Shown piece by piece: positions 33,506-41,190 of a stretch of DNA of 64,000 bases (position 1 is its first letter; every line of letters starts with the position of its first letter). Source of the stretch: Armatimonadota bacterium (GTDB taxonomy: Bacteria > Armatimonadota > DTGP01 > JAKQQT01); contig DASXVS010000071.1 in assembly GCA_036504095.1 (NCBI GenBank), positions 186,001-250,000 on the forward strand. Reading direction: 5' to 3'. The notes under the pieces were generated by a model. That model was not told where the DNA came from, made no database searches, and worked only from the letters and a program-made list of their open reading frames with translations. Made by a program: the position numbers and the translations under genes.

Positions 33506-33544
33506 AAGGGGCATCGTTCGCGCAGTGCGCAAACGATGCCCCTT
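33506..33544. terminator. Bidirectional terminator hairpin
   Basis: AAGGGGCATCGTT (33506-33518) and AACGATGCCCCTT (33532-33544) form a perfect 13-bp stem, loop 13 nt, with a GCGC pair inside. It separates the convergent DinB-like and DEAD-box genes. Confidence 0.85.
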
Positions 33545-35018: not shown

Positions 35019-35402
35019 TTACCCGAGCTCCCCCGCATCCGTCAGCCCTGCCACCTCACGCATGTACGTCTCGAACGGATCGTGCATGTGGATGGCGCGC
35101 TCGCGGCTGAGGTAAACGCCATCCCAATCGATGATGTACTCCGCCGTTCCGCGCGCCTGCAGGGCCCTGATCGCCGCTCCGCGCCCCTTGGCCCGTGTGT
35201 TCTGTGGCGGCGTCTCCAACGCGGACGTGACGTCGGAATCGGCGACCACCCGGCGCATCGCGCCTTCCTGCTCAAGACCGTAGTAAAGGCCGCTCTCAGG
35301 TTCGATGTTGTGATACTCCATGTCGAGACTGTGCAGAGTGTCGTCGTTCCGATCTGTATGCTGGAGCGTGACATCGACCCCTTCAAATCCAATGGCAAGC
35401 AC
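35019..35402 (-). pseudogene. Partial duplicate of the pafA 3' end
   Basis: The frame encodes a copy of the PafA C-terminal segment from NDDTLHSLDMEYHNI to DPFETYMR, then a different tail. Bases 35068-35350 match 36422-36704 with 7 mismatches in 283 and no gaps. The catalytic N-terminal domain is absent, and the ORF would have to start at a GTG (35402) with poor Shine-Dalgarno spacing. It is separated from the upstream genes by a terminator, so it is most likely a remnant of a recent duplication. Confidence 0.85.
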
Positions 35403-35472: not shown

Positions 35473-35505
35473 CGAAGGGCCTCTCAGATTCTGAGAGGCC
35501 CTTCG
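35473..35505 (-). terminator. Terminator hairpin after the acidic repeat gene
   Basis: CGAAGGGCCTCTCAG (35473-35487) and CTGAGAGGCCCTTCG (35491-35505): a perfect 15-bp stem with a 3-nt loop. It ends the pafA-lipoprotein-repeat-protein run. Confidence 0.85.
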
Positions 35506-35537: not shown

Positions 35538-35750
35538 TTAACGACTGCCCGGATCGCCACGGGGATCGTTGTCGGACGACTCGATGTCGGCGCCGGGATC
35601 GCCACGGGGATCCTGGTCCGAAGAAAGTATCTCCTGGCCGGCATCGCCGCGAGAATCACGGTCGGACGACTCGACCTCCTGCTGAGGCTCCTCTTCATCC
35701 TTCTTGCCCAGCAGGTCCGTCACGGTTTTCAGAATATCTTCCAAAGCCAT
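35538..35750 (-). CDS. Acidic disordered 15-residue-repeat protein downstream of pafA
   Basis: 70 aa. An amphipathic N-terminal helix (MALEDILKTVTDLLGKK) is followed by an acidic region and three 15-residue repeats (residues 26-40, 41-55, 56-70) of the form hxSSDxDxRGDxGxx. Ends GSR, so it is not a Pup/UBact with a C-terminal Glu/Gln. AGGAGG lies 8 nt before the ATG, so it is probably translated. No family recognised. It lies 15 bp after the lipoprotein gene in the UBact ligase segment; function unknown. Confidence 0.7.
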   Translation of the reverse strand: MALEDILKTVTDLLGKKDEEEPQQEVESSDRDSRGDAGQEILSSDQDPRGDPGADIESSDNDPRGDPGSR

Positions 35751-35764
35751 TGTTCCGCCTCCTA

Positions 35765-36244
35765 CTATTGAGCTGACTGTCCCTGTTCATCCGGGGAAAG
35801 CGCTAGAGGTTGGTAATTGTCCTTGAACTTGGTGCGGGAAATCTCGTCCCGATACCGCGTCTGGAACGACTGCGCTTCCTGTTGAGGTACCTGGATGCCG
35901 CCTTTTGGCGGCGAAACCCAATGCGCATTGCCCTGGGCGTCCCGGTAATAGATGCCACCCGTGGCTTCCGAACGGTACAACTGGCCTGTTGCACCAGCGG
36001 TTTTGGCCGTCTCCGGAGCCTTCTGGCGGTGCTGGTAGACATAGTACAGCGCAGCCGCTCCGACGAGGAGCGCCGTTTTCTGGCCGCGAGTCAATCCCTG
36101 CCTTGTAGATGGTCCCGAGCCGGGCGCGTTGCCCGATTGGTTCGATTCGTCTTTCCGCCCGCCGCAGCCTGCCAACATGGGCGAAAGGATGCCAAGCGTG
36201 ACGACGGTGGCGACCGTCCTTCTCCAACCGTAACCCATCTCCAT
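35765..36244 (-). CDS. Lipoprotein with second hydrophobic segment
   Basis: 159 aa. Signal peptide with lipobox SPMLAGCGG. A second hydrophobic stretch (KTALLVGAAALYYVYQH) could be a membrane helix near residue 60-75, and the C-terminal 80 residues are polar. A YYRDAQGNAHWV segment suggests a small β-domain. Not a recognised family. Sits 140 bp downstream of pafA and 15 bp upstream of the acidic repeat protein; a link to the tagging system is by position only. GAGGAG precedes the ATG. Confidence 0.65.
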   Translation of the reverse strand: MEMGYGWRRTVATVVTLGILSPMLAGCGGRKDESNQSGNAPGSGPSTRQGLTRGQKTALLVGAAALYYVYQHRQKAPETAKTAGATGQLYRSEATGGIYYRDAQGNAHWVSPPKGGIQVPQQEAQSFQTRYRDEISRTKFKDNYQPLALSPDEQGQSAQ

Positions 36245-36384
36245 TTTTCTTTGTCTCCTCGCAGAAACCTAAAGATGTCTTCGGCGGCGTTTCAGGCAGA
36301 GTGAATGAAGACTGACGCTATTGTACACGGCGAGGTTGCTTTCTTTCCACTACCCGGAGCGCGCTCAGTCTTCCGGTCGCCCGC

Positions 36385-37854
36385 TCACTCCTCGCTTAGG
36401 CTTTCGACGTCCCGCATATAGGTCTCGAACGGATCGTGCATGTGGATCGCGCGCTCGCGGCTGAGGTAAACGCCATCCCAGTCGATGATGTACTCCGCCG
36501 TTCCGCGCGCCTGCAGGGCCCTGATCGCCGCTCCGCGCCCCTTGGCCCGTGTGTTCTGTGGCGGCGTCTCCAACGCGGCCGTGACGTCGGAATCGGCGAC
36601 CACCCGGCGCATCGCGCCTTCCTGCTCCAAACCGTAGTAAAGGCCGCTCTCCGGGTCGATGTTGTGATACTCCATGTCGAGACTGTGCAGAGTGTCGTCG
36701 TTCCATCCGATGTGCTGGTCCGCCATATATGCTTCCAACATCGATCGCTTGGCCACCCAGTCCAACCGGTCGGCCAGAATCATGGGGTCCCGCTCCAGCG
36801 CGTCCAGGGTTTCCTCCCATTCGCGCAAGACCCAATCTGTTTGCTCGTCCCGCCCGCTGAAGTACGTTCGCGCTGCCTCCAGGTAGAGCCGCTGAAGGTC
36901 CACCGCGCCGATCGAGCCGCCTTCGCTGCGCTCTACCGGCCATTTCCACGTCTGGTCCCGGCTGACAGATTTTAGCGTTCCGAGCGCATCCGGTATTCTG
37001 ACCTCCGGCGGCACGGCGCCCATTTCCACCAGGTCCAGAACCAGCCAGGTCGTCCCTACCTTCAACGCCAGCGCGTATTCGCTCATATTCGCCTCTCCGT
37101 AGAGCAGGTGGAGGCGCTGATGATCGCTGAAATCGTAGAATGACTCGCGTTTGGGATTGATGATCGCCCTGTTGAAGCGGACGCGGCTGGAAACGGCGCG
37201 CAGGATGTGATCCGCGCGCTGGCTCAACTGATACGGAACGGAGTCGTCGAGCTCAACGCCGTAGATGTTGTCCACCCAGACGTAATCGACCTCGTATTCG
37301 CCGACGCTCATCACGTTCTTGTTGCTGCGCTGCCTCGTCAGCCGATGACCGCCCACGCGCCCAACACCGGCGAAGATCTGACGGGTGACGAGAAACGGAA
37401 GGAGATCGTTCAGGCCCTCGCGGAAGAAACGATCCTCCCCGGTAACGAGGTAGTTCTCGTGGCAGCCGAACGTGTGGCCGCCGAAGTGGTCGATGCTGTT
37501 GTTGTGAAAAGAGACGACCCCCTGCCAGCCCAACGCGTTGACAACGCTCTGGAGCAATGCCCGGCCGGCTCGGTCGTGGGCCACGAGGTCGAAGAGGTTC
37601 CGGCATTCCGGCGTGGCGTATTCCTCATGGCTCCCGACTTCATCAACGTAAAGCCGCGCGCCATTGGCGAGGAAACCGCCGCTGCGGGCGGGCTCGAAGG
37701 CGTAATTGCGGGCGTGGACGTCGATCAGCCCCAGCCCCATTTCGTAGAAGGCGTGGTCTTTGACGGCCTCGACGACCATCTCCGGCCGCCCGATAGAGCG
37801 GTCGTGCACCAGGCAGCCGAATTCCGTCTCTATCCCCACAATCCGGTCTGCCAT
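36385..37854 (-). CDS. pafA: Pup/UBact ligase PafA
   Basis: 489 aa carboxylate-amine ligase that couples the C-terminal Glu of the modifier to target lysines. Starts MADRIVGIETEFGCLV with GGAGGT 4 nt upstream. The catalytic region is NGARLYVDEVGSHEEYATPE with D71 as the likely base, one residue longer than the classic VDVGSHPEYATPE. FHNNSIDHFGGHTFGCHENY and PFLVTRQIFAGVGRVGG follow. The Dop-specific loop is absent, which separates it from the Dop gene at 41191. Its 3' end is duplicated at 35068-35350. It is split from the proteasome operon by fabI and the YbjQ gene. Confidence 0.92.
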   Translation of the reverse strand: MADRIVGIETEFGCLVHDRSIGRPEMVVEAVKDHAFYEMGLGLIDVHARNYAFEPARSGGFLANGARLYVDEVGSHEEYATPECRNLFDLVAHDRAGRALLQSVVNALGWQGVVSFHNNSIDHFGGHTFGCHENYLVTGEDRFFREGLNDLLPFLVTRQIFAGVGRVGGHRLTRQRSNKNVMSVGEYEVDYVWVDNIYGVELDDSVPYQLSQRADHILRAVSSRVRFNRAIINPKRESFYDFSDHQRLHLLYGEANMSEYALALKVGTTWLVLDLVEMGAVPPEVRIPDALGTLKSVSRDQTWKWPVERSEGGSIGAVDLQRLYLEAARTYFSGRDEQTDWVLREWEETLDALERDPMILADRLDWVAKRSMLEAYMADQHIGWNDDTLHSLDMEYHNIDPESGLYYGLEQEGAMRRVVADSDVTAALETPPQNTRAKGRGAAIRALQARGTAEYIIDWDGVYLSRERAIHMHDPFETYMRDVESLSEE

Positions 37855-37868
37855 ATCTACCTCCGAGA

Positions 37869-37889
37869 GCATTCAGCATCCAGTTCGGA
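37869..37889. repeat. Short heptad block upstream of pafA
   Basis: GCATTCA, GCATCCA, GTTCGGA (37869-37889), of the same GCATCCA/GCATTC word family as 19134 and 42680. Confidence 0.55.
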
Positions 37890-38319: not shown

Positions 38320-39090
38320 TTACAGTGCTGTGATGTGATACCCGCAGTCCACGTGGAATGTTTCGCCCGTAACCGCGGACGCCAGGTCACTGGCCAGGAA
38401 AACGCTCGCATTGGCGACCTCCTGCTGCGTCACGTTTCGGCGAAGCGGTGAGCGTTCTTCCACGGCGTGTAGCATAATGTCGAAATCGGAAATCCCGCGC
38501 GCGGCCATCGTCTTGATGGGTCCCGCGCTGAGCGCGTTCACCCGAATGTTTTTCGGGCCGAGATCCGCCGCGAGGTAGCGAACGCTCGCTTGCAGGGCTG
38601 CCTTGGCCACGCCCATCACGTTATAATTCGGGACGACGCGTTCCCCGCCAAGGTAAGTGAGCGTCTGGATGCTGCCGCCATCCGTCATGAGTGCTGCCGC
38701 ATGCTTGGCCGTTTCGACGAGAGAGTATACGCTCACATCCATCGCTAGCAGGAATCCATCGCGGGAAGTATCCAGAAACGTTCCGGTCAGGTCCTCGCGC
38801 TTTGCGTAAGCGATGGCGTGAACCATCGCGTCCAGCCTGCCGTATTCCGATCGGATCTGCGCGAACACCGCCTCCACCTGGGCGGAATCAGTAACGTCGC
38901 AATTCATAACCAGCGCACCGCCGAGAGACTCGGCGAGTTCATTCACCGGCTTCTCTTCGCGATCTCCCTGGTACGTCAGCGCCAGTTTCGCCCCCTGCGC
39001 GGAATAGGCCTGCGCAATGGCCCACGCGATGCTCCATTTGTTCCTGGCGCCCATCACAAGCGCCGTTTTGCCCGCCAAAAGTCCTGACAT
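38320..39090 (-). CDS. fabI: Enoyl-ACP reductase (FabI type)
   Basis: 256 aa SDR-like enzyme reducing enoyl-ACP in fatty-acid elongation. LAGKTALVMGARNKWSIAWA, the FabI variant of the Gly-rich NAD(P) site, then LALTYQGDREEKPVNEL, MVHAIAYAKREDL, and the catalytic Y-x6-K in NYNVMGVAKAALQ. NIRVNALSAGPIKTMAARGI is diagnostic. The ATG at 39090 has GAGGAG 3 nt upstream. Located between the terminator after prcA and the YbjQ gene. Confidence 0.95.
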   Translation of the reverse strand: MSGLLAGKTALVMGARNKWSIAWAIAQAYSAQGAKLALTYQGDREEKPVNELAESLGGALVMNCDVTDSAQVEAVFAQIRSEYGRLDAMVHAIAYAKREDLTGTFLDTSRDGFLLAMDVSVYSLVETAKHAAALMTDGGSIQTLTYLGGERVVPNYNVMGVAKAALQASVRYLAADLGPKNIRVNALSAGPIKTMAARGISDFDIMLHAVEERSPLRRNVTQQEVANASVFLASDLASAVTGETFHVDCGYHITAL

Positions 39091-39140
39091 AAACTCCTCG
39101 TTCTTCCCCACGCCTTTCCGCTGTCTTCCCGGGCAAAGCA

Positions 39141-39169
39141 AAGGATCTCGACGTCACGTTGAGATCCTT
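39141..39169 (-). terminator. Terminator between prcA and fabI
   Basis: AAGGATCTC (39141-39149) and GAGATCCTT (39161-39169), extended inside by a G/T and ACG/CGT pairs. Marks the end of the arc-prcA transcription unit. Confidence 0.75.
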
Positions 39170-40899: not shown

Positions 40900-41085
40900 C
40901 TACTCTCCGCTCCGCTGCCGGTATCGTTTCGCCTGGTCGGGGTCCACGCGTTTCATGCGTTCCATGAGGCGGCGTGTGTCCGGACGTTTCACATCCGGAC
41001 GGCCCGGTCCTCCACCGCCATCTCCCAGCTTCCGGGCGGGCTCCGGACCAGGAAGCACGCGTCGCTCCTCAAATTGCACTGCCAT
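40900..41085 (-). CDS. ubact: UBact-type ubiquitin-like modifier (Pup homologue)
   Basis: 61 aa, mostly disordered by composition, with the family C-terminal half VKRPDTRRLMERMKRVDP, then DQAKRYRQRSGE. It ends in Glu61, so it should be ready for ligation by PafA without the Gln-to-Glu deamidation used by many Pups. The start is the ATG at 41085, set by GGAGGT 5 nt upstream; the longer frame to 41163 lacks such a site. N-terminal half is Gly/Pro-rich. Directly upstream of prcB and downstream of dop, as expected for a proteasome-targeting tag. Confidence 0.9.
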   Translation of the reverse strand: MAVQFEERRVLPGPEPARKLGDGGGGPGRPDVKRPDTRRLMERMKRVDPDQAKRYRQRSGE

Positions 41086-41190
41086 CTCAGACCTCCCAGG
41101 CGCCTGCCTCATAGCAGACCGAATCAAGAAATCGCCATCCTGATGGATGCGCCGAGTTTCCATGTAACAAAGGGTGTTTCGGACTCTCGC

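Follow-up and report, generated by a model that had tools for sequence, protein, structure and literature searches.

Two adjacent genes that stand directly behind the ligase gene pafA in an Armatimonadota genome are, judging by where their homologues lie, a self-contained conserved module that is independent of pafA and the UBact system and came to lie there by chance. The first encodes a predicted lipoprotein and the second a small acidic protein that ends in repeats of a linear motif. Across two phyla the genes are conserved together, stay next to each other, occur in the same genomes and, in one case, decay jointly, and the motif itself is conserved and is used again behind a paralogue of the lipoprotein. 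The best explanation for this pattern, to which we assign a probability of roughly 0.55, is an independent module in which a beta-domain of the lipoprotein, placed at the cytosolic face of the membrane, putatively recruits motif-bearing proteins.

In the window, the whole stretch of 64,000 nucleotides that was analysed, gene 1 of the pair (35765–36244, minus strand) encodes a protein of 159 amino acids with homologues in Armatimonadota and cyanobacteria. The protein begins with a signal peptide and lipobox (LAGC, Cys27; 36164–36244, minus strand), from which a short linker leads to a second hydrophobic helix (residues 53–75, the GLTRGQKTALLVGAAALYYVYQHRQK region; 36020–36088, minus strand) that is followed by a C-terminal beta-domain of about 45 residues (residues 88–135, QLYRS..GGIYYRDAQGNAHWVSPP..IQVP; 35840–35983, minus strand). 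This domain, the proposed receptor, is conserved in alignments A3 and A6. The basic n-region, the hydrophobic stretch and the lipobox with Cys27 agree with the sequence criteria for lipoproteins, and from its lipobox and signal peptide the protein is predicted to be a bacterial lipoprotein, with the second hydrophobic segment that an earlier note on this DNA had described. The lipobox Cys is retained in the family except in a few Armatimonadota; lipidation seems dispensable, since three loci (L093, L095 and L097, in genomes G072, G070 and G076, respectively) have lost this residue while keeping the signal peptide, the second helix and the C-terminal domain. Between pafA and the pair lies a weak sigma-70-like promoter (36320–36349, minus strand; score 9/12), a kind of site of which one is expected by chance.

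Gene 2 (35538–35750, minus strand) follows after 14 nt on the same strand and encodes a protein of 70 amino acids with a net charge of −13, for which homologues were likewise found and in which an export signal is absent. It is preceded by the Shine-Dalgarno sequence AGGAGG, 7 nt before the ATG (35758–35763, minus strand). Residues 2–17 (ALEDILKTVTDLLGKK; 35700–35747, minus strand) form a predicted amphipathic helix, the helical moment of which is matched by 0.9% of shuffled sequences. The remainder is dominated by three 45-nt direct repeats on the minus strand, in register and each encoding 15 residues, with the units SSDRDSRGDAG (35637–35681), SSDQDPRGDPG (35592–35636) and SSDNDPRGDPG (35547–35591). 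Related units are found in dozens of homologues, which puts these repeats far beyond chance. The earlier note had reported the acidic protein, its amphipathic start, its three repeats and its strong Shine-Dalgarno sequence correctly. The terminator that it placed behind the gene did not hold up: a strong hairpin is present, formed by a perfect 16-bp inverted repeat with a 1-nt loop (35473–35505) that occurs once in the genome, but it has no U-tract on either strand and is absent from the terminator scan. A second long, near-perfect inverted repeat at 33506–33544 likewise lies between genes and has a 1-nt loop and no U-tract, and the two are possibly this organism's kind of terminator.

A search with the lipoprotein alignment found 40 loci in named genomes, which include Nostoc and its relatives, Planktothrix, Armatimonadota (among them Capsulimonas, Abditibacterium, Chthonomonadaceae and Fimbriimonadaceae) and one Myxococcales bin. 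At nearly all of these loci, the lipoprotein gene is followed directly and in the same orientation by a gene for a small protein that begins with an amphipathic segment and carries VRPASEDPYGDPAD repeats. Conversely, 60 of 63 distinct repeat proteins are encoded directly behind a lipoprotein; the script flagged 58, and L062 and L093 were added from their coordinates, as the overlap of their stop-to-stop frames is above the script's limit of 200 nt. Two of the other three belong to genus g42 (G051 and G077), where both proteins are present on different contigs, and the third (L145) borders an assembly gap. In a tree, the lipoproteins of each phylum cluster together, with no sign of rampant transfer. 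Searches of phages, plasmids and viral contigs returned no copies of the pair. No third neighbour of the pair is constant, and the flanks in Nostoc resemble ordinary chromosomal synteny, so that the neighbours give no clue to function.

The two genes also occur in the same genomes. Among 291 Armatimonadota, the lipoprotein was found in 20 and the repeat protein in 20, with both in 19. The one genome with the lipoprotein only (G037) has a weak match (44 amino acids, E 9e-4), and the one with the repeat protein only (G012) has a truncated lipoprotein side by side with a frameshifted repeat gene, which indicates that both genes decayed together. Among 386 sampled cyanobacteria, the lipoprotein was found in 26 and the motif in 32, with both in 25; here the motif was searched as an exact DNA pattern for DPxGDPAD, the reversed control of which gave a single match in the table. 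In the only cyanobacterium with the lipoprotein alone (G371), the start of the partner gene is present and then runs into the Ns of an assembly gap. Five of the seven cyanobacteria with the motif alone were inspected at the level of loci, three of which are unrelated frames (L134, L162 and L163) and two remnants (L136 and L159); G318 and G321 gave no locus. Fisher tests of co-occurrence (p of about 1e-27 in Armatimonadota and 1e-31 in cyanobacteria) ignore phylogeny, and more weight is therefore placed on the exceptions, which mostly dissolve on inspection. Together with the adjacency seen for 60 of 63 distinct repeat proteins, the co-occurrence in both phyla bears out the suggestion that the two genes belong together. 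Of 237 Myxococcota genomes, one had a match; as it is a metagenome bin, a binning error is possible.

Each repeat protein carries two to five copies of the motif. The consensus of 211 units, VRPASEDPYGDPAD, has 14 residues (V-R-P-A-S-E-D-P-Y-G-D-P-A-D). Within these units, both prolines of the DPxGDP core are present in 208, the serine in 202, the alanine in 196 and the tyrosine in 195; D7, G10 and D11 are present in 211 of 211, but this was required by the selection rule, which builds in the other positions not at all or only partly. Conservation this tight makes a specific partner very probable. The units of the window (SSDNDPRGDPG) and of its same-family relative G001 (SSDEDPLGDPG) are drifted versions of the consensus: the PAD ending is missing from both, and the window repeats also lack the tyrosine. 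The lipoproteins of these two genomes sit on a long branch of 1.5 changes per column. G001 nevertheless keeps five regular repeats and has much of its drift in common with the window.

Moreover, the motif is not confined to the small acidic protein. In two Nostoc genomes, a second carrier of 217–237 amino acids has an unrelated N-terminal region (MNLLEKIFGGG...), which looks helical, carries two or three VRPASEDPYGDPAD repeats in its C-terminal part and lies behind a paralogue of the lipoprotein in both (L130:6652–7305, minus strand; L131:5870–6583, plus strand). Decayed versions of this arrangement of second carrier and lipoprotein paralogue were found at L132/L218 and L219. No Pfam or NCBIfam family fits the second carrier. 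In the Armatimonadota genome G019, a frame of about 315–317 amino acids (L187:1444–2397, minus strand) carries SSADPYGDPAD and SSDAYGDPG copies and a similar-looking helical region; no lipoprotein adjoins it in the stretch examined. Being borne by these proteins too, the motif is portable, and the Nostoc second carrier has a lipoprotein of its own as well.

Two rival explanations bear on the place behind pafA. The first gives both proteins a part in the UBact/PafA tagging system, as accessory components or decoys, which the earlier note had considered, or as substrates; it is favoured by their place directly behind pafA (36385–37872, minus strand), on the same strand and after a gap of 140 nt. 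Upstream lies a regular UBact operon of dop, UBact, prcB, prcA, fabI, a YbjQ-like gene and pafA. Like the UBact and Pup modifiers, the 70-aa protein is small, charged, likely disordered and close to pafA. However, it differs from them in lacking a match to the UBact models PF20513 and NF033388 and in ending in GSR, without a conjugatable C-terminal Glu or Gln. A search for homologues beside pafA in relatives, the check that the earlier note had named, found none there, the outcome that the note had given as refuting a link: G001 has a dop-UBact-prcB-prcA-fabI-pafA operon without the pair, which is on another contig, and the pair is likewise away from pafA in G002, G005, G019 and G044, leaving the window as the only place, among the genomes examined, in which the two adjoin. 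Furthermore, Pup_ligase homologues are lacking from 12 cyanobacteria in which the pair is present (Corynebacterium served as a working positive control), and in Armatimonadota the lipoprotein is present in only 20 of 291 genomes, whereas Pup_ligase homologues were found in all eight searched (the window's own and seven others). A role as accessory part or tag decoy was thus rejected as hardly credible. The note's other suggestion, an unrelated surface pair, stands as far as independence from UBact is concerned; "surface" is doubtful for a repeat protein that has no export signal. By the second explanation, a recent recombination event brought the pair behind pafA and also left part of pafA as a copy, and what is left of the 70-aa protein in this genome is in decay. 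A copy of the pafA 3' end, which the earlier note did not mention, does lie at 35053–35364 (minus strand; 312 bp, 95% identical, its ends not matching pafA), so that pafA sequence lies on both sides of the pair, an arrangement to be expected after recombination, and the drifted repeats and long branch fit with decay. Both open reading frames are nevertheless intact, the ribosome-binding site is good, and the drift, being in large part common to G001 with its five regular repeats, would have begun before the move. Decay at this locus is therefore highly unlikely; the insertion itself is compatible with the independent-module explanation.

Three side observations concern the UBact genes themselves. 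The fabI gene, which encodes enoyl-ACP reductase (38320–39141), lies within the UBact/proteasome operon between prcA and pafA, as it does in G001 and does not in G005. The UBact open reading frame as listed (40900–41163) has an extension of about 40 residues ahead of the conserved UBact part, and its true start is probably further downstream. Additionally, G005 has a third divergent PafA/Dop-like gene (L115:3134–4402, on contig C34), 27–30% identical to both, in an 8-kb stretch without proteasome or UBact genes.

Comparison with known families bears out the earlier note's statement that neither protein is recognisable: the lipoprotein and the repeat protein have no Pfam or NCBIfam match, the lipoprotein has no significant match in the PDB by sequence or by fold (Foldseek), and no paper on the motif was found in the searchable literature text. 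Two AlphaFold models alike predict two helices, the signal helix and the second hydrophobic one, ahead of a small C-terminal domain with three short strands, which in the Nostoc homologue (residues 101–150) is modelled with a pLDDT of 84–91; the pTM of the whole chain is just 0.28–0.29 in both models. The C-terminal domain may resemble the WW domain (PF00397) in being a compact beta-meander with the order G-R-x-Y-Y ... W ... P (KNGRVYYRDAEHRAHWVTPP). Unlike in the WW domain, the first Trp is a Tyr, and the proposed ligand is without PPxY. A WW match by Pfam was obtained for 1 of 20 lipoprotein members (E 0.015, not significant) and for none in full-length scans. The WW domain of PRPF40A is the best PDB sequence match (E 0.49) and ranks 14th by Foldseek (E 0.68), again without significance, and no WW domain is among the 50 best structural matches of the better (Nostoc) model. 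These are weak hints, and "WW-like" is accordingly a lead and not a statement of membership. The DUF903 (YgdR/YgdI) proteins are also small lipoproteins with a beta-domain of about 50 residues, and, as a weak hint of a possibly common SH3-like small beta fold, they take Foldseek ranks 2–13 with one model (E 0.2–0.6); with the second model they do not rank among the best, and the window family has no profile match to them in Pfam or NCBIfam. DUF903 lipoproteins are not known to have a second hydrophobic helix.

How the independent module might work follows from the architecture of its two products. The second helix of the lipoprotein would act as a stop-transfer segment, leaving the beta-domain on the cytosolic side, where the small, soluble, signal-less repeat protein is expected to be. 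There, the domain would bind the VRPASEDPYGDPAD repeats, which are drifted to SSDxDPRGDPG in the window, and several repeats together with the amphipathic helix may build a multivalent array of motif-bearing proteins at the inner membrane. Topology is the weakest step, being predicted from sequence: the hydrophobic core of the second helix is short (14–17 residues) with basic residues on both sides, and if the lipoprotein were wholly periplasmic, a signal-less protein could not meet it. Also counting against this explanation are the low whole-model confidence of AlphaFold and the loss of PAD, and in the window of Tyr, from the repeats, which leaves the proposed ligand not fully conserved at the very locus where the pair was found.

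Two further readings accept that the genes belong together and differ on what joins them. The two products might act in a common pathway and never touch, the lipoprotein working in the envelope and the acidic disordered protein serving in the cytosol as a protectant, metal buffer or regulator. The lipobox and signal peptide, the strongly acidic, low-complexity tail of the repeat protein and the indirectly deduced topology of the C-terminal domain are all consistent with this, but the motif, with both prolines in 208 of the 211 units, is conserved much more strictly than the role of an acidic buffer or hydrophilin would demand, and a further protein, encoded behind a paralogue of the lipoprotein, carries it too; we consider the no-contact reading possible but rather unlikely. 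The pair might instead be a mobile selfish or defence-type unit, similar to a toxin-antitoxin system composed of a small acidic and a membrane protein. While the scattered occurrence (about 7% of the genomes in each phylum), the inconstant neighbours and the joint decay in G012 would suit such a unit, synteny within Nostoc is stable, the lipoproteins group by phylum, and phages, plasmids and viral contigs are free of copies, all of which makes a mobile unit distinctly unlikely.

The pair is undescribed among curated families, solved structures and searchable paper text, although unnamed or automatic-family database entries for it surely exist, and it fits no system of a known kind. Tentatively, and with less confidence than the module as such, it may be described as a bacterial membrane docking system in which a cytosolic, possibly WW-like beta-domain of a lipoprotein reads the short linear motif VRPASEDPYGDPAD, and in which this motif serves as a portable C-terminal address that two or more unrelated proteins bear, each having its receptor paralogue next to it. 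For the UBact system, a false lead is removed. For large-genome cyanobacteria, culturable Nostoc included, and for Armatimonadota, a conserved two-protein module is added, and if the lipoprotein is the partner of the motif, this would make it a membrane-located bacterial receptor for a peptide motif, open to direct testing with a peptide and the domain of 50 residues.
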